Of a stretch of 43,874 bases of DNA, positions 4,000 to 40,678 are shown piece after piece; position 1 is the stretch's first letter; each line of letters begins with the position of its first letter. The stretch is from Actinomycetota bacterium (lineage in GTDB: Bacteria; Actinomycetota; Acidimicrobiia; Acidimicrobiales; Ilumatobacteraceae). The notes below the pieces were generated by a model. It worked only from the letters and a program-made list of their open reading frames with translations. It was not told the DNA's origin and did no database searches. Position numbers and translations under genes: made by a program. Where the stretch lies: NCBI GenBank assembly GCA_026393535.1, contig JAPKZY010000019.1, forward strand, positions 1 through 43,874, given 5' to 3'.

Positions 4000-4005
4000 A
4001 ACTTA
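4000..4005 (-). promoter_or_regulatory. -10 box of hisC, leaderless
   Basis: On the minus strand TAAGTT is followed by six bases (GCCGAT) and then the hisC GTG. This places the expected transcription start on the start codon. No Shine-Dalgarno sequence lies before it, and no convincing -35 was needed to make the call. Confidence 0.5.
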
Positions 4006-4022
4006 GTCAACGAAGCCACAAA

Positions 4023-4214
4023 CTAGCGGGCAATTTTTTCAGCGCGAATCAGCAGCCGCTCGGCTGACAACAGGGCCCGCTCTGCTTCATACATTGCGCT
4101 GACAAGATCTTCATGGTTTGCACCAATGTTCTCGATAAGCCCCGCCACTCTCATTCGGTAGCGGTTTACGGCATCTGCTGCTGCGCCCAGTTCGGCACAA
4201 ATGGTGGCTGTCAT
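4023..4214 (-). CDS. Small helical protein of unknown function
   Basis: A 63-residue reading frame that fills the space between nth and hisC on the same strand. I do not recognise the family. The sequence is rich in Ala, Glu, Leu and Arg and contains no Pro or Trp. It looks entirely helical, possibly a two-helix hairpin with a turn near IENIGANHED, with heptad-like leucines in its second half (residues 37-63). It has neither a signal peptide nor cysteines. Support for it being real: ATG start preceded by TAGCGT at seven bases, good fit between neighbours (24 bases after the nth stop, 29 before hisC), and no competing frame. Function unknown. Confidence 0.6.
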   Translation of the reverse strand: MTATICAELGAAADAVNRYRMRVAGLIENIGANHEDLVSAMYEAERALLSAERLLIRAEKIAR

Positions 4215-4221
4215 CGCACAG

Positions 4222-4227
4222 ACGCTA
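4222..4227 (-). promoter_or_regulatory. -10 box of the small helical protein gene, leaderless
   Basis: TAGCGT on the minus strand, then seven bases, then ATG. It lies in the 24-base spacer after the nth stop codon, so the small gene can be transcribed apart from nth. Confidence 0.45.
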
Positions 4228-4238
4228 CTTGACTGTCG

Positions 4239-4901
4239 TCACTTCTCCTTTGACTTTGATGGCATCAGAGTGGCTGGACAGATATCTTCCAACTCACAGA
4301 TGCCACATTTCGGCTTCTTTGCATCACACACACGACGCCCGTGCAAGATAAGACGCAGTCCGAAACGACCCCACTCTGGCGGGTCAATGAATCCGTTGAG
4401 GACCCTTTCCACCTTCACAGGATCTTCCTCTGTAGTGAGCCCAAGACGGCGCGACAATCGACCAACATGTGTATCGACAGCAAGACCTGGCAAATCAAAG
4501 ACCACACTACGCAGAACGTTTGCAGTTTTACGACCAACACCGGGAAGTGTCACGAGATCTTCCATCTCATGAGGAATTACTGAAGCAAATCGATCAACAA
4601 CGTTGCGGCCCATGCCGATGAGATTCTTTGCTTTGTTCTGATAGAAACCCGTCGAGCGAATGATTGTTTCAAGTTCCGTTGGGTTCGCCTCAGCCAACGC
4701 CAGTGGAGTCGGGTACTTGGCAAAGAGCGCCGGGGTCACCATGTTTACTCGAACATCGGTGCATTGCGCCGACAAGATGGTGGCGGCCAGCAGTTCATAG
4801 GCGTTCGAATGAGTCAATTCGCACTCGGCTTTCGGGTACAAGACCTCGAGGCGAGTAGCTATTTCTTTCGCGCGTCCAGCTGGCGTTCTCGGCTTTCCCA
4901 T
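4239..4901 (-). CDS. nth: Endonuclease III (base-excision DNA glycosylase/AP lyase)
   Basis: Nth removes oxidised pyrimidines from DNA and cuts the abasic site by beta-elimination. The 220-residue protein has the helix-hairpin-helix with catalytic Lys (LPGVGRKTANV), the catalytic Asp in AVDTHVGRLSRRLG, and a C-terminal [4Fe-4S] site with the exact spacing C-x6-C-x2-C-x5-C (CDAKKPKCGICELEDIC). An upstream in-frame ATG at 4934 exists, but the ATG at 4899-4901 is preceded at six bases by TACCTT, matching the leaderless pattern of this window, and gives the usual family length. It is divergent from mshD across a 23-base spacer. Confidence 0.96.
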   Translation of the reverse strand: MGKPRTPAGRAKEIATRLEVLYPKAECELTHSNAYELLAATILSAQCTDVRVNMVTPALFAKYPTPLALAEANPTELETIIRSTGFYQNKAKNLIGMGRNVVDRFASVIPHEMEDLVTLPGVGRKTANVLRSVVFDLPGLAVDTHVGRLSRRLGLTTEEDPVKVERVLNGFIDPPEWGRFGLRLILHGRRVCDAKKPKCGICELEDICPATLMPSKSKEK

Positions 4902-4907
4902 GGCCAA

Positions 4908-4913
4908 AAGGTA
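4908..4913 (-). promoter_or_regulatory. -10 box of nth, overlapping the mshD -10
   Basis: Minus-strand TACCTT followed by TTGGCC and the nth ATG. Its TA pair (4912-4913) is at the same time the TA of the plus-strand mshD box, so the two elements are nested around GGTACC. Confidence 0.5.
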
Positions 4914-4917
4914 CCCT
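4912..4917 (+). promoter_or_regulatory. -10 box of mshD, overlapping the nth -10
   Basis: Plus-strand TACCCT, seven bases (GACACGC), then GTG at 4925. The match supports GTG 4925 as start over the downstream ATG at 4952. Confidence 0.5.
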
Positions 4918-4924
4918 GACACGC

Positions 4925-5848
4925 GTGCGTTCACTCGAAATCAAGAGACAGATGGACCCGTCAAGCATTGACGAGGTCTCAGCGCTGATTAATGACACAT
5001 GGCGAGCCGACGGTGTACGCCCCCTGAGTGACCATCTCTGGCTTGATTTACGTGAAGGTGGACGTAAGGGATTTGCCGGAGTCATCGTTCGCGACACCGA
5101 CCACAACCACATTGTGGGGTACTGCCAAATATCTCGAGGTAACGAGTCGTGGTCGCTTGACCTCATTGTTCACCCCCACCACCGATACGACTCACTGGAG
5201 ATTGCACCGGACTTGATTACCGCAGCGCTCGACATCGTTGCAAGCGAAGGTGGCGGACACGTGCACTGGTGGGTGTTTGAGCCAAACAATATTCATAGAC
5301 AACTAGCCAACAATGCAGGGCTTGCATCCGGCCGACACTTAGTACAGATGCGCAGGTCGCTTCCTCTCAGCGATGAACAACTCTCTCTCATTTCCGATTT
5401 CACCACGACGCCATTTCGCACTGGTGTAGATGAAGATGCTTGGCTTGCTGTTAACAATGCGGCCTTCAGTGCACATCCAGAACAAGGCGGATGGACGCGC
5501 GATGTCATTGCTGCTCGCCAAGCTGAGAACTGGTTCAACCCAGAAGGCTTTTTGATGTGCTGGGACAATTCCTCTCTCTCTGCTTTCTGTTGGACCAAAG
5601 TGCATCGCGATACCGAACCTCAGATGGGCGAAATTTATGTCATCGCCGTTGACCCCACCTATGCAGGCAAAGGCTTAGGACGACGCATGACAATTGCAGG
5701 CCTTGCTTATTTGGCCAAACAAAATGTGCCTAATGCAATGTTGTATGTCGACGCCGATAACGCAGCAGCAATGTCTGTATACACTTCGCTCGGATTCACC
5801 TCCCATCACCGCGAACTCGCCTTTATCGGCGATGTGGCAGCAAAGTAA
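4925..5848 (+). CDS. mshD: Mycothiol synthase (acetyl-CoA:Cys-GlcN-Ins acetyltransferase)
   Basis: MshD acetylates the cysteinyl amine of Cys-GlcN-Ins, the last step to mycothiol, the main low-molecular-weight thiol of actinobacteria. The 307 residues form two tandem GNAT domains, as in the family. The C-terminal half carries the diagnostic stretches HPEQGGWT, GEIYVIAVDPTYAG with the acetyl-CoA loop GKGLGRRMT, and LYVDADNAAAMSVY ending in LGF. The N-terminal GNAT is more diverged, as expected for the non-catalytic domain. The GTG start fits a leaderless box; ATG 4952 (nine residues later) is the alternative. Four bases separate its stop from the rlmN ATG region, so the two are probably one operon. 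Confidence 0.93.
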   Translation: MRSLEIKRQMDPSSIDEVSALINDTWRADGVRPLSDHLWLDLREGGRKGFAGVIVRDTDHNHIVGYCQISRGNESWSLDLIVHPHHRYDSLEIAPDLITAALDIVASEGGGHVHWWVFEPNNIHRQLANNAGLASGRHLVQMRRSLPLSDEQLSLISDFTTTPFRTGVDEDAWLAVNNAAFSAHPEQGGWTRDVIAARQAENWFNPEGFLMCWDNSSLSAFCWTKVHRDTEPQMGEIYVIAVDPTYAGKGLGRRMTIAGLAYLAKQNVPNAMLYVDADNAAAMSVYTSLGFTSHHRELAFIGDVAAK

Positions 5849-5851
5849 CTA

Positions 5852-6907
5852 ATGACAACTCTCTACGACCCCACTCGCGAAGAAATCGCAACAATTCTTG
5901 AAGGCGAAGCGTCTTATCGACTCGACCAACTGTGGTCTGGCATGTACACACACTTCAAGAAGCCATCTGACATTCAAACCCTGCCGGCAGCACTACGGGC
6001 AAAACTTGATGCCGAACTGCCAGAAGGACTGATTGAGATTCGTCGCGAGACTTCAGAAAATGGCGACACCGTAAAGTTTTTGTGGCACCTTCTTGAAGGC
6101 AACCACCCCATCGAAACCGTTCTTATGTATTACGACGAACGCGCCACCGTGTGTGTCAGTACACAAGCTGGTTGCGCAATGGCGTGCGGTTTTTGCGCTA
6201 CAGGCCAAGCAGGGTTCAACCGTCAACTGTCCCCTGGTGAAATCATCGAGCAAGTTGTCCGTTGCGCACGCGAAGCAGCAACTAAAAATCGCCGCATCGA
6301 CAACATTGTGTTCATGGGAATGGGAGAACCGCTCGCCAACGAACCAAACGTGTGGGCAGCAGTCGAGCGAATCCATGGCGACATTGGCATCTCTGCTCGT
6401 CATCTCACTATCTCCACAGTCGGCATCGTCCCTGGCATCAAGGCATTGACTCAGCGTCCATTGCCAGTCAACCTTGCTGTGTCATTGCATGCCGCACGCG
6501 ACCAACTGCGAACAGAACTAGTTCCGATCAATGAGCGCTATCCACTCAAGATGCTGATGGAAACTTGCCGTGAATACCTATTCACTAAAGGTCGCCGCAT
6601 CACATTTGAATGGGCGCTGATTGACGCCGTCAACGACACAGACCGCGATGCACGCGAACTGGCTGAATTGTGCTTGCAGCTCACACCAGCAGCTCATGTC
6701 AACCTCATTCCGTTGAACCCCACACCAGGTTGGCCAACTGTTGGAAGTTCGCCAGGACGAGTTGCAGCATTTCAACGATTACTGCGAGATCTTGGCGTCA
6801 ACGCCACTACGCGGCAAAACCGTGGTACAGAAATTGCCGCTGCGTGTGGACAACTTGCTGCTGGCCAGCCAGTGACCCTGAACGCATCTCGCGATCAACG
6901 CAAATAA
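5852..6907 (+). CDS. rlmN: Dual-specificity 23S rRNA/tRNA adenine C2-methyltransferase RlmN
   Basis: A radical SAM enzyme that methylates C2 of A2503 in 23S rRNA and A37 in certain tRNAs. The [4Fe-4S] motif C-x3-C-x2-C is seen in GCAMACGFCATGQ (near residue 105-120), and the second catalytic Cys in the C-terminal IAAACGQL. MGMGEPLAN, STVGIVPG and VSLHAARD are further family signatures. Length of 351 is usual. It follows mshD by three bases. The last 13 bases overlap the convergent DUF6285 gene. Confidence 0.97.
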   Translation: MTTLYDPTREEIATILEGEASYRLDQLWSGMYTHFKKPSDIQTLPAALRAKLDAELPEGLIEIRRETSENGDTVKFLWHLLEGNHPIETVLMYYDERATVCVSTQAGCAMACGFCATGQAGFNRQLSPGEIIEQVVRCAREAATKNRRIDNIVFMGMGEPLANEPNVWAAVERIHGDIGISARHLTISTVGIVPGIKALTQRPLPVNLAVSLHAARDQLRTELVPINERYPLKMLMETCREYLFTKGRRITFEWALIDAVNDTDRDARELAELCLQLTPAAHVNLIPLNPTPGWPTVGSSPGRVAAFQRLLRDLGVNATTRQNRGTEIAAACGQLAAGQPVTLNASRDQRK

Positions 6908-7236
6908 CGCGGGTTCGCCACTCTCAATTTGTCCTCCACTATGGGTAGCAAGCGCGTTAACACTGCAGACAAATCTGAATCAAACGTGCCTGAACGAATG
7001 GCAGTAGCTAATTCTTCGTCGTCGTTCATTCCAAACGATGCCAGTACCGATTCATGTCGAGCTTCTTGATCTGAACCCAGTTCAAGCTCACGACGAACAA
7101 TGTCGACCATATTGATTGCGACTCGTGTGTGGAATTGCAATCGACCGTCAACTCCGGGCAACAAGTCACGCTCCATCCATTCATGAAGAGCCTCAAGGAG
7201 TTCGGCTGCTGTTGGCCGGTCATGCGGGGCGGTCAT
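6895..7236 (-). CDS. DUF6285 protein, LvaB-like partner of the kinase upstream
   Basis: A 113-residue acidic, helical protein that begins with a ProThrAlaAlaGluLeuLeu-type helix and continues into a FHTRVAINMVDIVRRELELG segment. The pattern matches the small DUF6285 proteins commonly encoded right after APH-fold phosphotransferases. In Pseudomonas putida a comparable small protein, LvaB, works together with the kinase LvaA in phosphorylating 4-hydroxyacyl-CoA; the equivalence is my inference from size, order and sequence pattern. The start overlaps the kinase stop by four bases, so the two proteins are likely made in step. The 3' end overlaps rlmN by 13 bases. Confidence 0.75.
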   Translation of the reverse strand: MTAPHDRPTAAELLEALHEWMERDLLPGVDGRLQFHTRVAINMVDIVRRELELGSDQEARHESVLASFGMNDDEELATAIRSGTFDSDLSAVLTRLLPIVEDKLRVANPRYLR

Positions 7237-8186
7237 GGTGTTCCTTTTGTAAGAAGTTCAATCAGGTCATATTCATTTTCACAGACTCGACGTCCGATAG
7301 CTGCTAATTCATGACTGCGCACGATGCCTGACAGATGTGTTGCTGCTTGAGAGATACAAATGATTCCCCATTTCACCGTGCCAAGAGTTTCCCACCATCG
7401 CACAACATCAGGATCTGGTCGCACGCCTGTAACAGATGCATATGCATCAAAGAGTTCGTCATATGTACCGAGGCCTGCTGCAGGGAATGCTCCGCCAAAG
7501 CGCCACGCGCGCACACACAACCACCCGAGGTCTTCCATTGGGTCACCAATGTGGGCAAGTTCCCAGTCAAGAATTGCAGCCAGACCTTGCTCGTTCACCA
7601 TGATGTTGCCGAGACGATAGTCACCATGCACCAGACATGCTGACGTCGACTCAGGCTGGTTGAGATGTAACCAGCGAAATGCCGCTTCGAAGACTGGATG
7701 AGGTTCTCCGAGGTCTCGCAGAACTGTCTGATATCTATTCATCTGGTCATCGGCCACTAGCCCAGGAATTGACGAGGCGTCGATCTGATGTAATTGCGCT
7801 GCCGCCACACCCAATTGTCCGGTGAGCGCAGTACGGGCTGTATTGAACCTGTCGTCTCGCAGGATTTTGCGAGCAATAGTTTCGCCTTCGACCGCACGCA
7901 CAATCATGAACGGGGACTGCAGTTCTGTCCTTTCTGCGCCGTCCACAACCAATTCAGCGACTGGTACGCCTGCCCGGTGTGCTGCCGACAAAACGCGGGG
8001 CTCGACTTGGAATCCGCCAATGGTGCCAGGTCGCACACGTTGCAGGACAAATTCCTCATCGTCGGCAGTGAAACGCCATGTCTCACGCGATGCTCCGCCC
8101 GACAGTCGTTGAAGATTTGTGATGGAGGCCGCATTCATCACGCGAGTCAACCCCTGCTCAAGTTCCTCGTGTGCAGGGCCGACCAT
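7233..8186 (-). CDS. APH-fold phosphotransferase, LvaA-like
   Basis: A 317-residue kinase with the aminoglycoside-phosphotransferase fold. Seen in order: a Gly-rich N-terminal loop LSGGASRETWRF, the ATP-binding lobe EFVLQRVRPG, the catalytic loop HGDYRLGNIM (Brenner motif), and the metal-binding ILDWELAHIGDP. Relatives with this signature are not antibiotic resistance enzymes; they act on small acyl-CoA or alcohol substrates and appear in ACAD10-type and LvaA-type systems. Its coupling with a DUF6285 gene suggests phosphorylation of a 4-hydroxyacyl-CoA before elimination. No acyl-CoA dehydrogenase of the LvaC type is adjacent, so the pathway context is incomplete. ATG start; a weak CAGAGT box lies six bases upstream. 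Confidence 0.82.
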   Translation of the reverse strand: MVGPAHEELEQGLTRVMNAASITNLQRLSGGASRETWRFTADDEEFVLQRVRPGTIGGFQVEPRVLSAAHRAGVPVAELVVDGAERTELQSPFMIVRAVEGETIARKILRDDRFNTARTALTGQLGVAAAQLHQIDASSIPGLVADDQMNRYQTVLRDLGEPHPVFEAAFRWLHLNQPESTSACLVHGDYRLGNIMVNEQGLAAILDWELAHIGDPMEDLGWLCVRAWRFGGAFPAAGLGTYDELFDAYASVTGVRPDPDVVRWWETLGTVKWGIICISQAATHLSGIVRSHELAAIGRRVCENEYDLIELLTKGTP

Positions 8187-8208
8187 GTGTCTACTCTGTC
8201 ATGCCCGA

Positions 8209-8214
8209 TACCGT
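8209..8214 (+). promoter_or_regulatory. -10 box of the ABC ATPase gene, leaderless
   Basis: TACCGT, six bases, then GTG 8221. This decides the start of the ATPase: the frame is open further upstream to 8119, but that extension would run into the divergent kinase gene. Confidence 0.5.
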
Positions 8215-8220
8215 GTCTTC

Positions 8221-9024
8221 GTGCCGAACGACCCTGATATTTCGCCAGTTCTACAAACCAGCATTGTCAGCATTGTCAGAGAGGGCCGTTCCATCCTTGA
8301 TTCGGTATCTCTCTCCATCTCGCCTACTGACAGGTGGGTCATCCTCGGGCCAAATGGTTGCGGCAAGACCACACTGCTTCGTGTTCTGTCGCTGTATCTA
8401 CACCCGTCGTCTGGAGATATTTTTGTACAGGGTCGCGCATTAGGAACATTTGATATTCGTCCTGTACGTCCACGCATCGCATATATGTCAGCATCGCTTG
8501 CTTCTGAGATTCGCCCCGCATTAACAGCTACTCAAGTCGTGATGTCAGCAAAATTTGGCGCACTTGAAACGTGGTGGCACTCGTACTCCGATGAAGACAC
8601 TCAGCGTGCCCTGGAATGTCTTGACCGACTTGGTGTCGCATGGTGCGCAGACCGCGAACTCGGAGCTTTGTCATCAGGCGAGCAACAACGTGTTCTTCTC
8701 GCTCGGGCATTAATGACTGACCCTATTGCCCTACTTCTCGACGAACCGACTGCTCGACTTGACCTCGGTGGGCGCGAGAATCTCATACGTCTATTGCAGA
8801 ACTTTGCGAGCGACAACCCGCAACTACCTTCGGTCGTTGTCACTCATCATGTCGATGAGATTCCTCTCAGCAGCACACACTGTGCACTAATGAGGGATGG
8901 AAAGATCATTGCATCGGGTCAATTGCTCGACACTTTGACTTCAGAGTCGCTTTCTGAGTGTTTCGGAACATCTCTGATTCTCGAGCAAAGAACAAACGGT
9001 CGGTTAACCGCTTACGCCCCGTGA
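8221..9024 (+). CDS. Stand-alone ABC-transporter ATPase, COG1119 (ModF/YlmA) type
   Basis: A 267-residue ATP-binding cassette when started at GTG 8221. Walker A is GPNGCGKTT, the Q-loop region is replaced by IAYMSASLAS, the signature is LSSGEQQR, Walker B is ALLLDEP followed by TARLD, and the switch His is in VVVTHHVDEIP. The combination of 'LGTFDIRPVRPRIAYMS' and the short helical domain with LETWWHS resembles COG1119 proteins, which are widespread in actinobacteria and often lack a partner permease. No membrane protein or solute-binding protein is next to it, so whether it serves a transporter is open. Its last 13 bases overlap the convergent SRPBCC gene. Confidence 0.85.
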   Translation: MPNDPDISPVLQTSIVSIVREGRSILDSVSLSISPTDRWVILGPNGCGKTTLLRVLSLYLHPSSGDIFVQGRALGTFDIRPVRPRIAYMSASLASEIRPALTATQVVMSAKFGALETWWHSYSDEDTQRALECLDRLGVAWCADRELGALSSGEQQRVLLARALMTDPIALLLDEPTARLDLGGRENLIRLLQNFASDNPQLPSVVVTHHVDEIPLSSTHCALMRDGKIIASGQLLDTLTSESLSECFGTSLILEQRTNGRLTAYAP

Positions 9025-9437
9025 ACGACGCGAGCTAATCCAGTTTTTCCCGCCTCAACTTGAGCAGCAAGAACTCTGTCAAGGATGCCCGCAGTCCACA
9101 AAGTACCGCCGTAGGAAAGATCAACTGTCACGACACATCCCGCATCGGTTGTCTGCAGTGCGATGGCCATGGTCCACGGCGAATGTCGCCTCCCATCAAT
9201 CTCATCACGTTCGAATACGATGTGTTGCGAGGTGTTCACAGTGCGTTTCATGCGCAAACGTTTCGACCGAGCAAACACTCCCACCTTTGCACGCAATTCA
9301 ACATTCCACACGCCGTCGCCCACCGCTTCGGCGCCATGAACCATCGGCATCCATTCGACATACCGAGCAAGATCTGCGACATAGGGATGTACGAATGCTG
9401 ACTCTACTGCCAACACCACATCAGATGAATACTGCAT
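9012..9437 (-). CDS. SRPBCC (START-like) family protein
   Basis: A 141-residue protein with the pattern of the polyketide-cyclase/START fold: an opening strand SSDVVLAVESAF, a helix with YVEWMPMV, several antiparallel strands (WNVELRAKVG, RRHSPWTMAIAL, CVVTVDLSYGG), and a closing helix ILDRVLAAQVEAG. These small ligand-binding proteins bind hydrophobic molecules, but no ligand can be assigned. The gene follows the DUF3499 gene by five bases and is probably translated from the same mRNA. Its end overlaps the convergent ATPase gene by 13 bases. Confidence 0.7.
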   Translation of the reverse strand: MQYSSDVVLAVESAFVHPYVADLARYVEWMPMVHGAEAVGDGVWNVELRAKVGVFARSKRLRMKRTVNTSQHIVFERDEIDGRRHSPWTMAIALQTTDAGCVVTVDLSYGGTLWTAGILDRVLAAQVEAGKTGLARVVHGA

Positions 9438-9442
9438 GTGAT

Positions 9443-9886
9443 TTACTCTTCGTCTTTGGGTTCTTGACCAAATGCTCGACCCAGTAATCGACCAAACGTG
9501 GGTTGGTCGTCATCAGGTTTAACCGACTTCGCAAGTCGTGGCGACCACGGAATTGCTTGCGTTTCGTCCGGGTCTGGATTTCCCTCAAAAAGTGACGGGC
9601 GTTCTCGTTCTGGTTTTTTGGCAGAGACACGCTTCGTTCGAGTGACGGGGGGCGGTTGCGGATCATCATCGACGCGGAATAATTTAGGAACAGCATCACG
9701 TCGATCATCAATGGTCCAACCCCTGGGAACACTGAGAGCATTGGCATGACGACGACAGAGGCGACCTGCTAATTCACGTTCGGGAACTGCGCGGTTATCG
9801 ACCCACACCATGAGTTGTGCCTTGTCAATGCCGTATGACACTTCAGCAAGACCTGCACACCCAGGTCTTTCACATAACTTTCGCAC
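9443..9886 (-). CDS. DUF3499-type actinobacterial protein
   Basis: A 147-residue protein that begins MRKLCERPGCAGLAEV and continues to LCRRHANALSVPRGWTIDD. Together the two Cys at the N-terminus, the later Cys and the His make a likely zinc site, and the 'RH...L..PRGW' block is the hallmark of DUF3499, a family confined to actinobacteria and commonly near cell-division or mannose-metabolism genes. The rest is Pro, Asp and Lys rich and looks disordered, ending in an acidic tail. Function unknown. The GTG start is preceded at seven bases by TATCGT. Confidence 0.8.
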   Translation of the reverse strand: MRKLCERPGCAGLAEVSYGIDKAQLMVWVDNRAVPERELAGRLCRRHANALSVPRGWTIDDRRDAVPKLFRVDDDPQPPPVTRTKRVSAKKPERERPSLFEGNPDPDETQAIPWSPRLAKSVKPDDDQPTFGRLLGRAFGQEPKDEE

Positions 9887-9893
9887 TAATCCA

Positions 9894-9899
9894 ACGATA
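9894..9899 (-). promoter_or_regulatory. -10 box of the DUF3499 gene, leaderless
   Basis: Minus-strand TATCGT, seven bases, then GTG 9886. It lies in the 73-base gap after the J-domain gene, so DUF3499 and the SRPBCC gene can be read on their own. Confidence 0.45.
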
Positions 9900-9959
9900 G
9901 TTCCAATTGGTCAGCATCGGGACCATTTCCCTAAGGACCACTAGTACAGAGGTCTGTAG

Positions 9960-11484: not shown

Positions 11485-11501
11485 ATGGGTGTAACGCTAC
11501 G

Positions 11502-13532
11502 TCAACTACCCGCAAGAGTCGCAGCGATTTCGCTTGACGAACTACCGGACCTGCGCAAGACAACTGTTACGAACCACAGTGCACCCAAAGTCACACAGAA
11601 CAGAATTACTGCCCCTACTCCCCAGAATGGCTTGATGGTGCTACGAGTTGCACCAAGCAGTGCCACTGGGAATGTCGTGGAACCGGCCTCACTGATCAGG
11701 GTTGAGATAACTGCGTTATCGAGACACAAAGTAAACGACAACAATCCACCAGCAATGAGAGCTGACGAAATCAGTGGCAGTGTGATTTGTCGGAACGCAC
11801 GAGCAGGTGGAGCTCCCAAGTCAGCCGCAGCTTCTTCAAGTGCTTCGTCAAGCCCGGCTAGTCGGGCGCGAACAATCAGTGTGACAACAGCACTGGCATA
11901 CAGCGACTGACCTACCCACAATTTGTTCATGCCTCCGTTAAAGGGACCCCAACCGTGTTTGAACGGGTAACCGATGACTGGGAAATCAGCGACCCGTGGG
12001 AACCATGTGGCCAGCGCAATGGCATCCATGATTTCAGGTGTCACGAGAATAAGGAACACTGTTGCCATAAAGACTTTGGTCCATACACCAGGGCGTCGCG
12101 CTAGTGCTACACCTGCAAACCCTCCGAGAACGACAGCCAAAATAGTCGCGCCAAACGCTGCAATGAATGAGTTGCGAATGGCATCACCAATGCTTGCGAA
12201 ATCGAAAACGGTTTCATACCAATTAGTCGACATTCCATTGATGACAAACGCCAGCAAGAACGCAACTGGACCTGACCAATTTAAGAGGCGACGAGAGATC
12301 TTTGTCGTGCGCATCAACACGGTGCGAGCAACAACAGCAATAACAAAAAGTGCTGTAAAACGAGCCAACACTGCCCAAGCAACCGAACCATCAAACAGTT
12401 CATCCCACCACTTCACTCCGGCATTGCCTGACCAAATAGTGAAAGAACTTCCACCGTTAAACGAGTGGAACACCACGAGCAGAATAGGGATAAACAAAAA
12501 CACCAAGACGAGCACTGTCCACGCACTCAACGCGATCGGCAAGACGTCGAAGTTGAACAACCTTGCCTTTCCTTCGCGTGTACGACTAACAGAACGTTCA
12601 TGAAACAAATGTTTGATTCGAGTCGAAATTGAAGTTGGGTGTTTTAGGACCCACGTGATCAGCCACACAATGCCTGCACCCACAATCATGGAAAGCAACA
12701 CTGCGCCAATCATCAGAATTGCCATTGCCGAACCAAGCGGCCAGTTTTGAGCGCCGCTGAATTGTGATGCGATCATCGAACCGATCATGTTTCCTTTTGC
12801 GCCACCAAGAACAGTGGCCGTGACGTAATCACCACACATCGGTATGAACGTCAACAGAACACCGGCAATGATTCCTGGACCAGCCAACGGCAACGTGACA
12901 CCAAAGAATGTAGCTACTCGTCCGGCACCTAAGTCTTTGCTCGCTTCACGCATACGAATATCAATTCGATCAAGCGCCACGAACAACGGCAAGATCATGA
13001 AACCGAGATAGTTGTAAATGATGGCCACTTGCACAGCAAGAGGAGTCTCAAGGATTTGAATTCCTTGCGTACCGATCCAACCCATGTCGACCAGCCACTT
13101 CGAAAAGAAGCCGTTCGGCGCGAGCGGAATACGCCAAGCAACAGTGCGAATCAGGAAGCTAGTGAAGCTAGGGACCACCACTAAAGCAAGAATGATCGCT
13201 TTCCATTTTTCTGGCACTTTGAACGCAGCAAAATACGCAACTGGCAAACCAATAACCAAACACCCGATTGTCGCGATGGTTGATATTCGTAATGTTGACT
13301 TGAAAACCTTAAAAAAGGTCTCGTCAAAAACGTTTGAATAATTAGCTCCTGATAAATGGCCGTAGTCAACGGGAATTAACTTCGAGCCATCTTTTGCAGC
13401 AAAGCTGTAGACAACAATAAATGCAATCGGTACAGCAAAAAACAGCAGGTACCAGATAATCGACGGTAAGGCGAGTGCGAACTTAGGAGCTCGCAGCCGT
13501 TTGCGATGGGAGGTTGCGACCGGTGCGGTCAC
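11502..13532 (-). CDS. Fused polyamine ABC permease (PotB-PotC in one chain)
   Basis: A 676-residue membrane protein that joins both permease subunits of a spermidine/putrescine importer. The PotB half spans about 1-295 and has its EAA coupling loop at 196-215 (EASKDLGAGRV...LPLAGP). The PotC half spans about 330-665 with a second EAA loop at 566-586 (EEAAADLGAPP...LPLISS). A basic linker (302-325) joins them. The PotC half carries about 50 extra residues (385-435) with two hydrophobic stretches, flanked by two similar motifs: KWWDELFDGS at 374-383 and NWYETVFDFAS at 437-447. Start is GTG, five bases after the potD stop. Confidence 0.9.
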   Translation of the reverse strand: MTAPVATSHRKRLRAPKFALALPSIIWYLLFFAVPIAFIVVYSFAAKDGSKLIPVDYGHLSGANYSNVFDETFFKVFKSTLRISTIATIGCLVIGLPVAYFAAFKVPEKWKAIILALVVVPSFTSFLIRTVAWRIPLAPNGFFSKWLVDMGWIGTQGIQILETPLAVQVAIIYNYLGFMILPLFVALDRIDIRMREASKDLGAGRVATFFGVTLPLAGPGIIAGVLLTFIPMCGDYVTATVLGGAKGNMIGSMIASQFSGAQNWPLGSAMAILMIGAVLLSMIVGAGIVWLITWVLKHPTSISTRIKHLFHERSVSRTREGKARLFNFDVLPIALSAWTVLVLVFLFIPILLVVFHSFNGGSSFTIWSGNAGVKWWDELFDGSVAWAVLARFTALFVIAVVARTVLMRTTKISRRLLNWSGPVAFLLAFVINGMSTNWYETVFDFASIGDAIRNSFIAAFGATILAVVLGGFAGVALARRPGVWTKVFMATVFLILVTPEIMDAIALATWFPRVADFPVIGYPFKHGWGPFNGGMNKLWVGQSLYASAVVTLIVRARLAGLDEALEEAAADLGAPPARAFRQITLPLISSALIAGGLLSFTLCLDNAVISTLISEAGSTTFPVALLGATRSTIKPFWGVGAVILFCVTLGALWFVTVVLRRSGSSSSEIAATLAGS

Positions 13533-16032: not shown

Positions 16033-16038
16033 TAGTGT
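16033..16038 (+). promoter_or_regulatory. -10 box of the aminotransferase gene, leaderless
   Basis: TAGTGT, six bases (TCATAC), then ATG 16045. The predicted transcription start is the A of the ATG. Confidence 0.5.
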
Positions 16039-24112: not shown

Positions 24113-24118
24113 ACCCTA
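24113..24118 (-). promoter_or_regulatory. -10 box of murF, leaderless
   Basis: Minus-strand TAGGGT, six bases (CGTTCC), then ATG 24106. Eight bases separate it from the oppositely directed ddl box. Confidence 0.5.
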
Positions 24119-24126
24119 GTGGCGAG

Positions 24127-24132
24127 TACCGT
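24127..24132 (+). promoter_or_regulatory. -10 box of ddl, leaderless
   Basis: Plus-strand TACCGT, seven bases (CTTACCG), then ATG 24140. Its -35 region would fall on the murF start codon. It supports ATG 24140 over the upstream GTG at 24119. Confidence 0.5.
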
Positions 24133-25851: not shown

Positions 25852-25886
25852 AGGTCCTAACAGTAGAGCCTGAGAGGGCCCAAAGG

Positions 25887-31972: not shown

Positions 31973-32042
31973 CGGGACAACGCTGGCCCGAGCAAGATTA
32001 AGACTATCGAGCCTGACGGCCCCTCACCAAGGGATTATTGGC

Positions 32043-32861: not shown

Positions 32862-32923
32862 GAAACAAGTTTGGCACGACTCGGCTCGTGATTTGTTATT
32901 CGGCGCGTGGCAGACTGCAACAT

Positions 32924-33571: not shown

Positions 33572-33575
33572 TCGC

Positions 33576-34307: not shown

Positions 34308-34327
34308 TTGTATTATAGTTGTATACA
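34308..34327. promoter_or_regulatory. Candidate GntR operator between gntR and acn
   Basis: Two direct TTGTAT repeats start 11 bases apart (34308 and 34319), one helical turn, and the second is part of the palindrome TGTATACA (34320-34327). GTAT/ATAC half-sites are common for GntR/HutC proteins. On the minus strand the same segment holds TATAAT (34312-34317), a good -10 for gntR, so binding would block its own promoter as well as act on aconitase. Confidence 0.45.
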
Positions 34328-34375
34328 TCAAGACAAAACGCAAGTACCTATTTCTTGCCCTGTGAAAGGCCCTCT

Positions 34376-36643
34376 ATGACTGTTTCAGCCGGCACTCCTA
34401 TTTCTCTCGTGAACGCGGTGTACGCAACGCTTCCTGCCAATACAGCTCTAGGCCGCGAACGCCTTGGCCGACCACTGACCCTGGCCGAAAAGATTCTCAT
34501 CAACCATCTAGTTGATCCACAGACACAGGAAATGGAACGAGGTCGTAGCTACGCCGACTTCAACCCAGACCGTGTTGCAATGCAAGACGCAACTGCACAG
34601 ATGGCGTTGCTGCAATTCATGACTGCTGGCTTGCCACAAACATTGGTGCCGTCAACAGTGCATTGTGATCACCTGATTCTCGCAAAGGCCGGCGCAAAGC
34701 TTGACCTTCGTGATGCAAACGATGTGAACCACGAGGTGTACGACTTCTTGCGTTCAGTGAGCGCAAAGTACGGAGTTGGTTTCTGGGGTCCAGGTAGCGG
34801 AATCATTCACCAAGTTGTTCTTGAGCATTACGCCTTCCCTGGCGGAATGATGATTGGTACAGACAGTCACACACCAAATGCTGGTGGACTCGGAATGGTT
34901 GCCATTGGTGTTGGTGGCGCAGACGCAGTTGATGTCATGACCGGTTTCCCGTTCAATGTTCGCTGGCCAAAAGTCATCGGCATCAAACTCACCGGAACTT
35001 TGTCTGGTTGGTCAAGTCCGAAAGACGTGATCTTGGAAGTTGCACGTCTGCTGACCGTTGAAGGCGGAACGGGTGCAATTGTTGAATACTTCGGTGATGG
35101 CGCAGACAGCATTTCTGCAACAGGAAAAGCAACCATCTGCAACATGGGTGCCGAAATTGGTGCCACCTGTTCTGTATTTGGATACGACGCAAACATGTCG
35201 GCATATTTGTCAGCAACTGGCCGGGCAGACATTGCAGCTGCTGCAGACAAGGTTGCCTCTGACCTTCGACCAGACGATGGCGCACAATACGACCAAGTGG
35301 TTGAGATCAATCTTGATGCATTGACACCACTTATCAACGGCCCTCACTCCCCTGACCGTGCGAACAAGATTGGCGCAAACGGTGTTGGTAAGGCCGCTCG
35401 CGAAAACGATTGGCCGCTTGATGTGTCAGCAACACTCATTGGTTCATGCACCAACTCGTCATACGAAGACATCACTCGCGCAGCCTCAATTGCCCGTCAA
35501 GCTGCTGCAAAGGGATTAAAGGCGAAAGTGGAACTTCTCATCTCACCGGGAAGTGAACAAATTCGCGCAACGATTGAACGCGACGGTTTACTTGCAGATC
35601 TTGAAGCAATTGGTGCAACTGTTCTTGCCAATGCCTGCGGACCATGCATCGGACAATGGGAACGTGCTGCAGATATCAATGCAAAGCCGAACAGCATCGT
35701 GAACTCCTTTAATCGTAACTTCCCGAAGCGCAATGATGGTTCAGCGAACACGTTGTCGTTTGTAACAAGCCCCGACACCGTTATGGCAATTGCATTGTCC
35801 GGTCGTCTTGACTTTGACCCAAGCGTTGACACCATTACGGCTCCAGATGGCTCACAAGTGAAACTTGATGCACCACGTGGCGACATTCTTCCTGCAAATG
35901 GCTACAACGAAGGCGAAGACACCTTTACTGCTCCACCAGCAGACGGAAGTGGCGTCACTGTCGCTGTCAGCCCCACAAGTGATCGTTTGCAGTTGCTGAG
36001 CCCATTCGGTGCATGGAACGGGAAGGACTACATCGGACTTCCCGTGCTGATGAAGGCACAAGGTAAGTGCACCACTGACCATATTTCTGCAGCTGGTAAA
36101 TGGCTGACATACCGCGGCCACCTTGAGAACATCTCTGGCAACTTGTTCATTGGTGCTGTCAATGCATTTGGTGGCGCAGTGGGCGAAGGCCTTGATGTCA
36201 TCGACGGCTCGCGCCGTAGTTACCCAGACATTGCCAAGCACTACGGAGAATCCGGTGTGCAGTGGTGTGCAATTGGTGACCAGAACTACGGAGAAGGATC
36301 ATCACGCGAACACGCTGCAATGGAACCCCGCTTTCGTGGCGGAGTAGTCATCTTTGCTCGCTCGTTTGCTCGAATTCACGAGACCAACTTGAAGAAGCAA
36401 GGTCTAGTTCCACTTACATTCGCTGACCCGAAAACGTATGACCTGATTGAAGAGACAGACCGCATCAATGTGCATAACTTGCCGCCAGTGCCTGATCAGC
36501 CCGTGAAGTGCTCAATCACGAAAGCCGATGGCACAACAGTTGAGTTCGAAGCAAAGCACACATTTAGCCCAGAGCAAGTGGAATGGTTCAAAGCTGGATC
36601 AGCGTTGAACATCGTTCGCGCAAAAGTTGCAGCTCAGAAATAA
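34376..36643 (+). CDS. acn: Aconitate hydratase, mitochondrial type
   Basis: Aconitase converts citrate to isocitrate with a [4Fe-4S] cluster. The 755 residues match the mitochondrial-type family rather than the ~900-residue AcnA/IRP type of most actinobacteria. Cluster ligands are the Cys in [11 protein letters not shown] and the pair in [38 protein letters not shown] and [17 protein letters not shown] are substrate and swivel-domain signatures. ATG 34376 has GAAAGG upstream at about eight bases; an earlier ATG at 34319 lies within the operator and is rejected. Convergent and abutting with the HAD-acyltransferase gene. Confidence 0.95.
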
Positions 36644-38068
36644 TTAGTCGGTACCCGGGCGCCGTTCATCTTCGGCGTTTGGGTCACCTGCATAGTTCGA
36701 CGGATACGAGCGTCGCAGTTCATCCTCTGTCGGTTCGTAATACTCACGTCCCTCTGGTGGAAGCAGTGCGCTAATTGCAGCCATGATTGCCACCGTGTCT
36801 GCATCCGGGTCTGTGTATTGCAATTGCACCGGTGGCCCCACCACGATAATTACTTCTGGTGGCGACGTGACATTCGTAATGTTCGGAAGTTTGGCATTAC
36901 GTGGCCACACTTTTTCTGTTCCCCAAATACCGATGGGAATCACAGGCGCGCGCGTGGCAGCAGCAAGTTTCGCAGCTCCCCATCTGCCCTTCAAGATCGG
37001 ATCAAAAAATGCATGTCCGCGCGGAATGGTGCCTTGAGGCATGAGAGCAACAAGATCGCCGGCATTAATGAGTTCTGTTGCTGCACGCAATGGTTCATCG
37101 CTCCCCGTGCCTCGTTCGACACGAATACCACCAAGAGCAGTTGCAATCGGCCCAATGACCGGCGCGTCAAAAACTTCTTTCTTACCGAGGAAACGAACCG
37201 CGCGGCCAGTTTTTGCAACAGCAAGTGACACGGCAGCAATATCGAAATAACTGCGGTGGTTTCCACACAGAATCGCTGCACTGTCTTTCGGAATATTCTC
37301 TGTACCTGAAATAGTGAAGCGCGCATATGGAAATACTTCTGGTCGTGCGAATTTCATCAGTAGTTGTTGCGCTTCTAAGCCGATAACTGGCACCTTTGCC
37401 ACACCATGTGGCACATCAAGGTGCATGACTGGCCAGCGACGTGCGGCTGCCATGAGACGAAGGCGCCAATCAGGGTTCACGCAATGTGGGAACCCCACAG
37501 CAGCGAGCAATGGTTCATCAAACACACTGTCGCTGTATGCATACGAACCCGATAGATCCACATCATTCTCTTGTGACCACGCACGCACTGCATCGCGCTT
37601 TCCACGTGACCACACATACGTACCATCAAGTTCGCCGGTGTACACGCCCTCGCTATCAACTCCGTACGTTGTTGCAATCACCGCATCAAACCCCATGAGA
37701 TCTGCGAATGGTTCAATAAGGTCACGCGGTGTAGTAGTTGCCAGCACAACACTGCGACCCTCAGCACGGTGTGAGTCAATAACTTTTTGCGCATACGGCT
37801 GCACCATTGCCACCAAGTCAGGTGCAGCTATTCGTGCAGCTTCGCGCACTTCATCACGACGATGTCCACGCATTGCAAGAACTGCTTGACGGCCGAGAAC
37901 CATCGACGGCAAATTCTCGCCGAATGTTTCAAAAATTGAATACATCAATGACTCGCCTGGAATTGTACGCGTGACTATTCCCGTCTCACGAAGAACGCGA
38001 CTCACGACATGTGCAGACGCACCAGACAAAATTGTTCTGTCAAGATCAAAAAACGCTGCATATGCCAC
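36644..38068 (-). CDS. HAD-IB phosphatase fused to 1-acylglycerol-3-phosphate acyltransferase (PlsC)
   Basis: A 474-residue two-domain protein. Residues 1-215 are a HAD-IB phosphatase: FFDLDRT (nucleophile and acid Asp), VVLATTTPRD (motif II), and YAYSDSVFDEPLL (metal-binding). Residues 240-430 are an LPLAT domain: NHRSYFDIAA is the H-x4-D catalytic pair, LGKKEVF and the MPQGTIPRG loop bind substrate, and PVIPIGIWGTE follows. The domain order resembles mycobacterial PlsC-like fusions. The product may handle phosphatidate or a precursor in phospholipid synthesis. GTG start; the transcript may start upstream at the 6C RNA region, whose terminator ends about 55 bases before. Confidence 0.92.
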   Translation of the reverse strand: MAYAAFFDLDRTILSGASAHVVSRVLRETGIVTRTIPGESLMYSIFETFGENLPSMVLGRQAVLAMRGHRRDEVREAARIAAPDLVAMVQPYAQKVIDSHRAEGRSVVLATTTPRDLIEPFADLMGFDAVIATTYGVDSEGVYTGELDGTYVWSRGKRDAVRAWSQENDVDLSGSYAYSDSVFDEPLLAAVGFPHCVNPDWRLRLMAAARRWPVMHLDVPHGVAKVPVIGLEAQQLLMKFARPEVFPYARFTISGTENIPKDSAAILCGNHRSYFDIAAVSLAVAKTGRAVRFLGKKEVFDAPVIGPIATALGGIRVERGTGSDEPLRAATELINAGDLVALMPQGTIPRGHAFFDPILKGRWGAAKLAAATRAPVIPIGIWGTEKVWPRNAKLPNITNVTSPPEVIIVVGPPVQLQYTDPDADTVAIMAAISALLPPEGREYYEPTEDELRRSYPSNYAGDPNAEDERRPGTD

Positions 38069-38122
38069 GCGCGAAGGTTACGCCAGCAACAGACGATTAC
38101 ATTTCCACATATGCCGAGAAAT

Positions 38123-38235
38123 GGGAAAGACCCCGCCTAAGCGGGGCCTCTCAACCGAAACCCATGATCGGGGGGGATCATTATGTTGGGTTCATTCGGC
38201 CGGACTATGGGGGGCATGTCCGGCGCGATCTGTTA
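38123..38235 (-). ncRNA. 6C small RNA
   Basis: On the minus strand two hairpins carry loops with runs of cytosines. The first is GCCGGAC / GTCCGGC (38218-38224 with 38199-38205) around ATG-CCCCCC-ATA; the second is ATGATC-CCCCCC-GATCAT (38164-38181). This is the defining layout of the actinobacterial 6C RNA family (two stem-loops, each with six or more C). A promoter lies directly upstream and an intrinsic terminator directly after, giving a transcript of about 110 bases. In Mycobacterium tuberculosis the 6C RNA (B11) sits beside a HAD-family phosphatase gene (Rv3661), an arrangement also found here; that comparison is from memory. C-rich loops are thought to pair with G-rich ribosome-binding regions of target mRNAs. 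Confidence 0.85.
38124..38146 (-). terminator. Intrinsic terminator of the 6C RNA
   Basis: CCCCGC-TTAG-GCGGGG stem (38131-38146) followed on the minus strand by TCTTTCCC. Six G-C pairs plus a T-rich tail make this the only convincing rho-independent terminator in the window. Confidence 0.7.
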
Positions 38236-38240
38236 GTGAA

Positions 38241-38269
38241 AGTATGCACGTGAATGCGTGAACACTCAA
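38241..38269 (-). promoter_or_regulatory. Promoter of the 6C RNA
   Basis: Minus-strand -35 TTGAGT (38264-38269), a spacer of exactly 17 bases, and -10 CATACT (38241-38246). The expected start is around 38234, about ten bases before the first hairpin. Confidence 0.6.
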
Positions 38270-38280
38270 GTTGAACGAGG

Positions 38281-38295
38281 CGATAGTTGCTATCG
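38281..38295. promoter_or_regulatory. Palindrome between the 6C RNA and lysR, candidate LysR operator
   Basis: CGATAG-TTG-CTATCG is a perfect 15-base inverted repeat. Its centre lies about 54 bases before the predicted 6C start and 53 bases before the lysR ATG, a usual distance for LysR-type sites. It could serve both directions. Confidence 0.4.
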
Positions 38296-38340
38296 TCTTT
38301 AGAGATAGGCTAGTGACAGGACAGAAATGAGGCTTCCCCT

Positions 38341-39294
38341 ATGGAAATCAAGCAATTACAGAGTCTGGTGGCAATTGCTGACCACGGCACCTTTTCCGCA
38401 GCTGCCAAGGCTCTCGACACAGTCCAATCAAATGTGTCTGCCCACATAGGTCGCCTTGAGAAGGAACTCGGCACATCCCTGATCGACCGATCAACCGGAG
38501 TTCTGACCGACGAAGGCGACATGGTGGCCATCCGCGCTCGGCGCATCTTGCACGAAATGGAAGACATTGATGCAGATATTCATTCACTTGGTTCTTCCAC
38601 TACCGGCGACTGCCGCATCGGAAGTATCGGTACTACAGCACGATGGCTGATGCCGTCTCTCTTGGCATCACTGCAGCGTCATCATCCTGGCGTACACACA
38701 ACTGTTATTGAAGGTGTAACAAGTTCACTCATATTGAGACTCACAAGCGGAGAAATAGATGCAGCAATTGTGCATCTCCCCATTCCCGATACAAGTCTTG
38801 ATGTCAAAGAATTATTTGCAGAGGAATTATTCCTTATTGCACCAAAATCTCATGAATTAGCAACTCACACGACTATTAGTTTGGAAGAGTTGTCGTTGCA
38901 CCCCATTCTTCTTGCGCCTCGCGGCACAGCACAACGTCGCATTATTGATCGAGCAGCTGCTAACCAAGGAGTCGCTCTGCAGTCCCAAGCAGAGATAGAC
39001 GGTGTTCGCCTGATGGCGTCGCTCGTGTTTGAAGGGTTCGGCCCCGCCATTGTTCCTGCAAGTGCCGTGCCAGGATGGCTGGAAGGAAACTTTGTACGCA
39101 TCCCCGTGCCCGAACTACCCCGCCGCGTTGTGGGATGGGTACAGCGCCCACGCCCTCGGCCAAACAGAGCAACCCTCGCTGTTCGTGACAGAGCCTTTGA
39201 CATGGTGAACCGGCACGGCCCGAAGCAGCCAGGGATTTCTCTTGAAATTGGCGTGAAACCCACCAAGGGAACCCTCACCTCGCTCACTGTCTAG
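38341..39294 (+). CDS. LysR-family transcription regulator
   Basis: A 317-residue regulator. Winged helix at residues 1-60: IKQLQSLVAIADHGTFSAAAKAL, SNVSAHIGRLEKELGTSLIDRS. A linker helix and a periplasmic-binding-protein-like effector domain follow (GSIGTTARWLMPSLLASL, EIDAAIVHLP, LILLAPRGT). The C-terminal ~35 residues extend beyond the usual end. GAGG lies about eight bases before the ATG. It is divergent from the 6C RNA and followed at ten bases by a carboxyltransferase gene; either may be its target. Effector unknown. Confidence 0.9.
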   Translation: MEIKQLQSLVAIADHGTFSAAAKALDTVQSNVSAHIGRLEKELGTSLIDRSTGVLTDEGDMVAIRARRILHEMEDIDADIHSLGSSTTGDCRIGSIGTTARWLMPSLLASLQRHHPGVHTTVIEGVTSSLILRLTSGEIDAAIVHLPIPDTSLDVKELFAEELFLIAPKSHELATHTTISLEELSLHPILLAPRGTAQRRIIDRAAANQGVALQSQAEIDGVRLMASLVFEGFGPAIVPASAVPGWLEGNFVRIPVPELPRRVVGWVQRPRPRPNRATLAVRDRAFDMVNRHGPKQPGISLEIGVKPTKGTLTSLTV

Positions 39295-39297
39295 TCT
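39292..39297 (+). promoter_or_regulatory. -10 box of the carboxyltransferase gene, made partly of the lysR stop codon
   Basis: TAGTCT, seven bases, then GTG 39305. Its first three bases are the TAG stop of lysR, as in the ald-P450 pair. Confidence 0.45.
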
Positions 39298-39304
39298 GTA
39301 CCTA

Positions 39305-40678
39305 GTGAGTACAAGCCAGCCCAACACTCAGAACGTGATGGTGGGACTACAACACAAGGTTCCCGGCGCCGCGCAAGCCAATGTCGTGACTTTGTCGACA
39401 GGCCGACATGTTGTGTGGCTTACAGTCGACGGCTCGCTCCATCGTGGTGCACTCAGTGCCGCAGCCTCGTATGTCATTGCCACAGCTGCTGACACAGCAC
39501 GCACAAAAGGTATTCCTCTTGTCGTGCAGATGGAATCATCTGGTGCAGACATTCTTGAGGGAATCGCAGCACTTCATGGTTGGGGCACTGCAGCCAAAGC
39601 TCTTGCAGATTGTTCAGGAGTAGTTCCCACGATCAGCATTGTTATAGGGCCCGCTGTCTCTGGCCCCGCACTTCTTCTTGGCTTGTCCGACTTTGTCGTC
39701 ATGACGCAAGATGCATACGCATTTGTGAGCGGCCCGACGATGGTTGTTGAGTTCACTGGCATTGACGTCAGCACCGACGAACTTGGCGGCGCAGGCACCC
39801 ACGCACGACACACTGGCGTGAGTTCAGTTGTTGTTGCCGACCTTGATGAAGCCACAGTGTGGCTAGAAGAATTACTCGAATACCTTCCGAACGGCGTTGA
39901 CCAACTAGCGCCGGTGATGCCAACGTCTGACCCAGACGACAGGTCGACGCCAGAAGCCGGCGATCTCATTCCTACCACATCAACAGGCAGTTACGACGTT
40001 CGACATGTCATCGAATCAATCGCTGATGACGGCATCTACTTCGAAATGAAACCATGGTGGGCTAGCAATGTCGTCACGGCATTTGCACATATGGCTGGCT
40101 ACCCCATTGGCATAGTTGCAAACCAACCCATTTCTCTTGCAGGCACCCTAGATATTCCTGCATCACAAAAAGCTGCTCGATTTGTGGCGTTCTGTGATGC
40201 CTTCAATATTCCCGTTCTCACATTGGTCGATACTCCTGGCTTTTATCCGGGCAAGGACCTCGAATGGCGCGGCATGATTCGCCATGGCGCGCAATTGGTG
40301 TTTGCGTACGCACGCGCCACCGTGCCCCGCATCTGTGTTGTTCTGCGCAAGTCCTACGGCGGTGCATACATCGTGATGGACTCAAAAGAGATGGGCAATG
40401 ACTTGTGCCTTGCGTGGCCATGCGCAGAATTGGCAGTAATGGGCGCCGGCCAAGCTGCGGCAATTTTGCAACGTCGAGCCACCCCTGAAGAACGAGCCGA
40501 GTTCGAAGCGGATTATTCTGCCCGGTTGCTGAACCCGTACATCGCCGCTGAGCGTGGTTATATCGATGCCGTTATTGACCCAGCAGATACTCGCCGAGAG
40601 ATTTGTGCAGCACTTCACATGCTCCGCGACAAACGTGAACGCTTGGTTTCTCGCAAACACGACAACACCCCGTTGTAG
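39305..40678 (+). CDS. Acyl-CoA carboxylase beta-subunit (carboxyltransferase) family protein, short N-terminus
   Basis: A 457-residue carboxyltransferase. The C-terminal half is highly typical: SLAGTLDIPASQKAARF, LVDTPGFYPGKDLEWRG, LRKSYGGAYIVMDSKEMG, WPCAELAVMGAGQAA. The N-terminal half is recognisable (LGGAGTHARHTGVSS) but lacks about 60-80 residues at its start, including the opening segment before the first crotonase-like core, and has MESSGADILEG where family members usually have a DSGGARIQEG-like loop. No biotin carboxylase or biotin carrier gene is adjacent. It could still be part of an acetyl-, propionyl- or other acyl-CoA carboxylase, or have lost that role. Confidence 0.8.
   Translation: MSTSQPNTQNVMVGLQHKVPGAAQANVVTLSTGRHVVWLTVDGSLHRGALSAAASYVIATAADTARTKGIPLVVQMESSGADILEGIAALHGWGTAAKALADCSGVVPTISIVIGPAVSGPALLLGLSDFVVMTQDAYAFVSGPTMVVEFTGIDVSTDELGGAGTHARHTGVSSVVVADLDEATVWLEELLEYLPNGVDQLAPVMPTSDPDDRSTPEAGDLIPTTSTGSYDVRHVIESIADDGIYFEMKPWWASNVVTAFAHMAGYPIGIVANQPISLAGTLDIPASQKAARFVAFCDAFNIPVLTLVDTPGFYPGKDLEWRGMIRHGAQLVFAYARATVPRICVVLRKSYGGAYIVMDSKEMGNDLCLAWPCAELAVMGAGQAAAILQRRATPEERAEFEADYSARLLNPYIAAERGYIDAVIDPADTRREICAALHMLRDKRERLVSRKHDNTPL

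Follow-up and report, generated by a model that had tools for sequence, protein, structure and literature searches.

Putative leaderless promoters and −10 cores shared by divergent genes in a genome of the Acidimicrobiales

The stretch analyzed here is contig JAPKZY010000019.1 (43,874 bases, hereafter the window; C16 in our numbering) of an Acidimicrobiales draft genome comprising 1,956,235 bases in 113 contigs (assembly GCA_026393535.1). Twelve gene starts in the window are preceded by the hexamer TANNNT, a −10 type box, at a gap of 6 or 7, where the gap denotes the bases between hexamer and start codon. On the forward strand, such boxes precede mshD (4912-4917, start GTG 4925, gap 7), an ABC ATPase gene (8209-8214, GTG 8221, gap 6), a class-III aminotransferase gene (16033-16038, ATG 16045, gap 6), a cytochrome P450 gene (20057-20062, ATG 20069, gap 6), ddl (TACCGT at 24127-24132, ATG 24140, gap 7) and a carboxyltransferase gene (39292-39297, GTG 39305, gap 7). 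On the reverse strand, they precede hisC (4000-4005, GTG 3993, gap 6), a gene encoding 63 residues (4222-4227, ATG 4214, gap 7), nth (4908-4913, start codon 4901, gap 6), a DUF3499-like gene (9894-9899, GTG 9886, gap 7), murF (ACCCTA as written on the forward strand, 24113-24118, ATG 24106, gap 6) and a HAD/acyltransferase gene (38075-38080, GTG 38068, gap 6). The boxes of nth and mshD overlap in a single symmetric core on both strands, AAGGTACCCT at 4908-4917, and those of murF and ddl stand face to face at 24113-24132 around a conserved 8-base middle. All eleven starts named in the original prediction were found, and the HAD/acyltransferase start was added. The chance estimate of about one box holds as well, with 0.97 expected at gaps 6-7 over the 85 candidate RTG starts of the window (binomial p = 3e-10). 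Two weaker candidates on the reverse strand, at gap 9 before ATG 11484 (11494-11499) and gap 8 before GTG 25851 (25860-25865), bring the boxes to 14 of 38 called window genes. Wherever gene names were checked against protein family models, they agreed. The MshD, Nth, MurF and HisC proteins score above the cut-offs of TIGR03448, TIGR01083, TIGR01143 and TIGR01141, respectively. Pfam domains of D-Ala ligase, P450, class-III aminotransferase, ABC and carboxyltransferase type were found in window proteins, and the DUF3499 match lies below the Pfam cut-off (E = 7e-4).

A genome scan for an excess of TANNNT had been set beforehand as a test. We sampled 60 stretches of the genome in addition to the window, 614,086 unmasked bases in total (about a third of an incomplete draft), and called genes with a home-made dicodon model. 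The relatives were 18 further genomes of the same genus and 12 of the same order, with one genus sampled in depth; related genomes are not independent observations. Among them, G001 and G007 belong to the same genus, G028 to another family, and G020 to the same order at 75% GC. At 543 longest open reading frame starts of our sample, TANNNT occurred 66 times at gap 6, 21 times at gap 7, 13 times at gap 8 and 17 times at gap 9 (117 in total). The background at gaps 15-40 averaged 0.57% per offset, which yields p = 5e-64 for gap 6. Internal in-frame start codons (10,063) showed no excess, with TANNNT at 0.1-0.4% for gaps 6-9 (mean 0.22%). The same peak was found in G001 and G007 and, at a lower height, in G028. 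Gap 6 was the mode at longest-frame starts in all four genomes, and gap 7 at coding-score starts of G028. The prediction that boxes lie exactly 6 or 7 bases before starts thus stands for twelve window starts and is slightly narrow genome-wide, where gaps 8-9 are also enriched. A separate gap-9 class with non-standard start codons was considered and found unsupported, as the triplets before the start were mixed. Boxes were present at 188 of 544 genes and at 29 of 544 control offsets, leaving about 29% after subtraction, in agreement with the proposed third of all genes.

The boxed starts differ from other starts in several respects. Among 190 box-start matches, 125 start codons were ATG, 61 GTG and only 4 TTG, although TTG made up 357 of 1568 candidates (p = 1e-17). 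Shine-Dalgarno (SD) motifs preceded 9 of 188 boxed and 103 of 356 unboxed genes, and were found at 52 of 149 unboxed genes lying at most 20 bases behind a same-strand gene. The predicted absence of SD sequences at boxed window starts was borne out, with AGGA, GGAG, GAGG and GGTG at none of the twelve in the 16 bases from −20 to −5, and AAGG only at mshD, directly before its box. The 16S rRNA retains the anti-SD GGATCACCTCC, therefore other genes can use SD sequences; a 2024 survey gives, in the part available to us, UCACCUCCUU as the anti-SD of Acidimicrobiia (PMC10783764). Boxes occur mainly where transcription must begin. They precede 103 of 195 divergent starts of our sample, 35 of 85 same-strand starts at distances of 21-60 bases from the preceding gene, 24 of 86 beyond 60 bases and 22 of 171 within 20 bases. 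The TA of the box might also be a by-product of upstream TAA or TAG stop codons close before the next start, as at 39305, where it belongs to the TAG of the preceding gene. Boxes are commonest, however, at divergent starts, which have no preceding same-strand gene, and the interior is rich in G+C with TACCGT and TACGGT among the commonest boxes, so we regard an origin from stop codons as hardly credible. No clear −35 element was detected with the one consensus tried, as TTGACA-like hexamers reached 0-9% depending on spacing compared to 3-5% in control stretches.

We suggest that the boxes are leaderless promoters, a reading to which we give a probability of about 0.88 including the proposed mechanism. 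The housekeeping RNA polymerase, acting through its sigma factor, would recognize a −10 element of essentially three bases (T-12, A-11 and T-7) and no −35 element. Transcription would begin at the first base of the start codon and produce mRNA without a leader, and translation would initiate from the 5' RTG with no SD sequence. This mode would apply to approximately 30% of genes overall and to around half of those in divergent orientation, and genes closely behind a same-strand gene would more often carry an SD motif. The original prediction had likewise read the boxes as leaderless promoters, and the RTG preference, the low number of SD motifs and the location of boxes where transcription must begin support this.

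The boxes are largely conserved in relatives. Conservation was scored as TANNNT at gaps 6-9 in distinct upstream sequences of relatives and covers nine of the twelve window starts (all except the ABC ATPase, DUF3499-like and class-III aminotransferase genes). The box was kept in 15 of 18 sequences for hisC, 13 of 16 for the 63-residue gene, 19 of 25 for nth, 17 of 19 for mshD, 2 of 2 for P450, 5 of 5 for murF, 3 of 3 for ddl, 17 of 18 for the HAD/acyltransferase gene and 14 of 17 for the carboxyltransferase gene. At the HAD/acyltransferase gene, the box of relatives reads TAACCT, TAGTGT or TAGCCT, with the T, A and T constant and the interior variable. Some exceptions (e.g., L075, L077, L103 and L104) show another nearby RTG at gap 6-7 from a TANNNT, where the start seems to have shifted together with its box. 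Conservation of this kind supports the chosen starts, and the starts at 4925, 24140 and 39305, which the boxes had been predicted to settle, are backed by the sequences of relatives. The 18 closest loci (L093-L110), retrieved through a window protein, share 63-100% identity; their titles name Ilumatobacteraceae, Acidimicrobiaceae or Actinomycetota/Actinobacteria, and three instead name Bifidobacterium breve. The latter (L093, L095 and L096) carry a protein gene 95-100% identical to that of the window, and the titles of these metagenome-assembled genomes look mislabeled. Isolate names of some of these relatives point to lakes such as Baikal and Pavin, and the source organism is apparently a freshwater member of the Acidimicrobiales, judging from these titles.

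Beyond the original prediction, two further features were recognized, namely a box shared by divergent genes and a scarcity of TANNNT inside genes. Both genes are boxed in 29 of 95 divergent pairs of our sample, 16 of 65 in G001, 16 of 58 in G007 and 9 of 31 in G028. The symmetry of TA and of A-NNN-T allows a single core to act for both members of a divergent pair. Among candidate start pairs separated by 18-33 bases, we looked for one symmetric core (TANNNTA or ANNNTANNNT) at a gap of 6-9 from either start codon. Such a core was found in 4 of 34 start pairs of our sample, 2 of 29 in G001, 2 of 35 in G007 and 1 of 13 in G028. Across the genus, this amounts to 8 of 98 candidate divergent start pairs compared to an expectation of 0.41 from shuffling the bases that separate the two codons. 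The shuffle means were 0.18, 0.13, 0.10 and 0.04 for our sample, G001, G007 and G028, and the observed counts were reached or passed in 0, 11, 8 and 86 of 2000 shuffles, respectively. The two hexamers are offset by −1 or +4, which corresponds, as far as the sequence can tell, to start sites 18 and 23 bp apart.

The shared cores are retained across the genus at two loci. The nth/mshD core, AGGGTACCTT or AGGGTACCCT (AGGGTACC[T/C]T in the nth sense), is present in all 15 same-genus loci that include both starts (a count leaving out G003, G004, G005 and G016), between spacers of 6-7 bases with variable sequence. The core AGCCTACGCT between rnhB and its divergent neighbor, a MOSC-domain protein gene as tested in G001, is found in 15 of 16 loci including our own genome (G006, G007 and G010 left out of the count), and G009 is the sole exception lacking the arrangement. 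At murF/ddl, both face-to-face boxes are present in 18 of 18 same-genus loci, G016 being left out at a contig end. The 8 bases between these two boxes (24119-24126) read GTGGCGAG in 14 of the 18 loci, with close variants in the other 4; they are required by neither −10 element and are possibly a regulator site. Loci from other families were left out of the same-genus counts and, inspected by eye, do not show the arrangements of the genus, except for a ddl/murF core in G028. There, ddl shares one core with a second gene of Mur-ligase type, which was called murF solely on its first residues. Palindromic operators of a regulator could also produce shared divergent cores, and in their favor the core hardly varies at any of its ten bases, the N positions among them, and is thus more conserved than TANNNT alone requires. 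However, the distance to the start codon is 6-7 bases on either side despite spacers varying in sequence and length, the interior bases differ between pairs, and the two offsets match start-site spacings of bidirectional promoters as given in the available text of a published study (PMC12825309). We consider operators improbable, though worth bearing in mind. At nth/mshD and rnhB/MOSC, the single 10-base core would represent the whole control region. We lean towards the view that such a core provides complete control of two divergent protein genes. Polymerase binding either way would produce a leaderless mRNA, the two genes would compete for one site, and the first codons of each gene would serve as the upstream promoter DNA of the other, with the arrangement kept across the genus despite a 4-8-fold under-representation of TANNNT in gene interiors. 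We discarded a proposal that A is shunned at −16 and −6 to keep promoters one-way, since gene and intergenic controls share this scarcity, which is therefore part of a general avoidance of TANNNT. A weak contrast remains in the symmetric base, present at 46 of 229 divergent and 18 of 179 co-directional boxes (p = 0.006).

The scarcity of TANNNT inside genes is pronounced. The ratio of observed to expected occurrences of a T exactly five bases after the T of a TA was 0.31 sense and 0.32 antisense in our sample, 0.22 and 0.28 in G001, 0.23 and 0.22 in G007, and 0.37 and 0.39 in G028, compared to 0.82 and 0.86 in 150 kb of E. coli K-12. The depletion at spacing 5 extends over all three phases. 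Spacings of 6-15 gave ratios between 0.88 and 1.11, and spacings of 2-4 between 0.68 and 1.53. Against a synonymous shuffle preserving protein and codon usage, 1142 occurrences were observed for 4921 expected in our sample (0.23), 408 for 2641 in G001 (0.15), 263 for 2164 in G007 (0.12) and 197 for 888 in G028 (0.22). On the other strand, the ratios were 0.23, 0.18, 0.12 and 0.25, so that TANNNT is 4-8-fold scarcer in genes than the synonymous null on both strands. It ranked lowest of 64 words in each of the four genomes, where the next lowest words reached 0.82, 0.83, 0.59 and 0.64, respectively. In E. coli, the hexamer was the third lowest word at 0.84. Codon-pair or amino-acid bias, or avoidance of restriction sites, might cause under-use of any short word, and spacings 2-4 do deviate somewhat. 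Such causes appear very improbable to us, given that strong depletion is found at spacing 5 in three phases and on both strands, survives the synonymous shuffle, recurs in three same-genus genomes and in one from another family, and deepens with G at −14. We instead suggest that, with a promoter this short, selection against spurious transcription purged TANNNT from both strands of gene interiors.

The depth of avoidance depends on the bases in and around the hexamer in the coding sequences of our sample, G001 and G007. It was deeper with G at −14 (0.077), which we take to be the extended −10 position, and with A at −8 (0.057). With A at −6, the ratio of 0.036 roughly equals the square of 0.19, in line with a motif present on both strands. 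The avoidance was weakest with T at −8 (0.39), and it was nearly uniform along genes (0.18-0.23). TANNAT, the word with A at −8, has the most avoided interior, and A at −8 is rare in used leaderless promoters as well; perhaps this base makes the promoter too strong. A comparison independent of gene calls used the phase-matched TANNNT ratio of whole sequences in 15 samples, most of them 19-150 kb and several of them plasmids. The genus had the lowest values (0.30-0.38), with 0.55 for G028 and 0.47 for mycobacterial loci. Plasmid stretches gave 0.67 for Mycobacterium, 0.55 for Streptomyces and 0.59 for Rhodococcus. Deinococcus, Rossellomorea and E. coli each reached 0.89, Sinorhizobium 0.96, and two small mixed samples 0.82 and 1.02.

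Several observations weigh against the interpretation as leaderless promoters with shared cores. Start positions come from our simple gene caller. Among window genes without a box, 16 of 24 likewise lack an SD four-mer, so SD absence alone discriminates little in the window. G020 shows no boxes before starts and no depletion (phase-matched ratio of 1.20). The gene caller performed poorly at its 75% GC, hence G020 was dropped from the start statistics; promoters may take a different form in its family, or such a composition may defeat the test. For the shared cores, pairs of CAY and RTG in gene interiors carried a core in 3 of 10,097 cases in our sample, 0 of 7,111 in G001, 0 of 8,196 in G007 and 0 of 3,608 in G028. 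This null (3 of 25,404 in the genus) is too low because TANNNT itself is scarce inside genes, and the shuffle is fairer. Conservation of a core between trpS and scpA failed, as it is present in G007 and broken in G009, where the TA is lost. The pair, named from the first residues, carries the core at 12622-12646 of locus L161 in G007 and no TA in its close relative G009 (L223); elsewhere, inspection by eye showed separate boxes further apart. A two-way promoter may thus have been gained or lost recently. Finally, gaps 7, 8 and 9 are enriched too, and gaps 8-9 could mean leaders of 1-3 bases. The promoters would then be real with very short leaders (1-5 bases) and the genes only nearly leaderless; the distance from −10 element to start site also varies in E. 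coli, according to the portion of the study available (PMC12825309). Against this stands gap 6 as the mode at longest-frame starts in all four genomes. The C at −1 also fits initiation on the codon, modestly, its frequency being 0.52-0.77 where the gap is 6, 0.42-0.47 among the remaining called starts and 0.29-0.34 at internal start codons. As C is frequent at starts without a gap-6 box too, this support is weak. Short leaders throughout seem improbable to us, and fully leaderless transcripts remain the preferred reading.

Proteins acting on RNA polymerase were also surveyed. CarD_TRCF_RID matches occur in all 21 Acidimicrobiales genomes, and a second, CarD-like match in a short frame in 18 of them. 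An absence of RbpA was considered as a lineage feature and rejected. None of the 21 Acidimicrobiales genomes, our own included, has a match, but only 8 of 80 genomes of the phylum do.

The box is mainly useful for fixing gene starts in uncultured Acidimicrobiales, because leaderless genes in Actinobacteria are already known. The shared cores may represent natural minimal two-gene switches for studying how the polymerase chooses a direction. Strong scarcity of TANNNT at moderate GC content offers a gauge of how costly a very short promoter is, and promoter strength may be readable from what genes avoid.

Both the leaderless boxes and the avoidance of TANNNT are of known kinds, here found in Acidimicrobiales. 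As in the leaderless genes known from Actinobacteria, TANNNT lies about 12 bp before the start (PMC3160421, PMC3898074; available text of both). On the basis of TANNNT, Zheng 2011 predicted that 86 of 89 Actinobacteria have leaderless genes, with an average of 19.2% and a range of 2.3-29.8 according to the sections available (PMC3160421). The share of about 29-35% here was obtained by a different method. Furthermore, that study describes TAtaaT-like boxes in medium-GC groups, in contrast to the G+C-rich interior found here at 51-57% GC. Its main text contains no occurrence of the string "Acidimicrobi". In M. tuberculosis, 26% of genes with a primary start site were leaderless, no −35 motif was found, and closely juxtaposed divergent promoters were common, as the available text of Cortes 2013 states (PMC3898074). 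General avoidance of −10 elements was described by Froula and Francino 2007 (PMC1939733, in the part seen). Hegelmeyer 2023 reported TANNNT as depleted in all three frames of M. tuberculosis genes, where recoding creates internal start sites (PMC10653884, available portion). The under-use in three frames is alike in the genomes studied here, yet our analysis differs in covering both strands, a synonymous null and another class. Bidirectional promoters with a symmetric −10 element are known from E. coli, where start sites 18 bp apart are commonest and 23 bp also common (PMC12825309), and are also treated elsewhere (PMC10268837; both as far as available). A search of full-text literature for leaderless genes with bidirectional or divergent promoters gave an archaeal match and, going in part by titles, no bacterial one, with subscription papers mostly uncovered. 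For leaderless genes in combination with "Acidimicrobi-", the available text of PMC10783764 names the class only for its anti-SD. Leaderless two-way promoters with TANNNT were found in none of the full-text literature covered, and within that literature, outside which most subscription papers lie, the conserved two-way leaderless core is new. The Acidimicrobiales cores resemble the published bidirectional promoters in the shared −10 element and in start sites 18 or 23 bp apart (PMC12825309, PMC10268837, again in their available parts). Unlike in those promoters, the start sites here would be the start codons of two protein genes themselves, with a leader on neither side.

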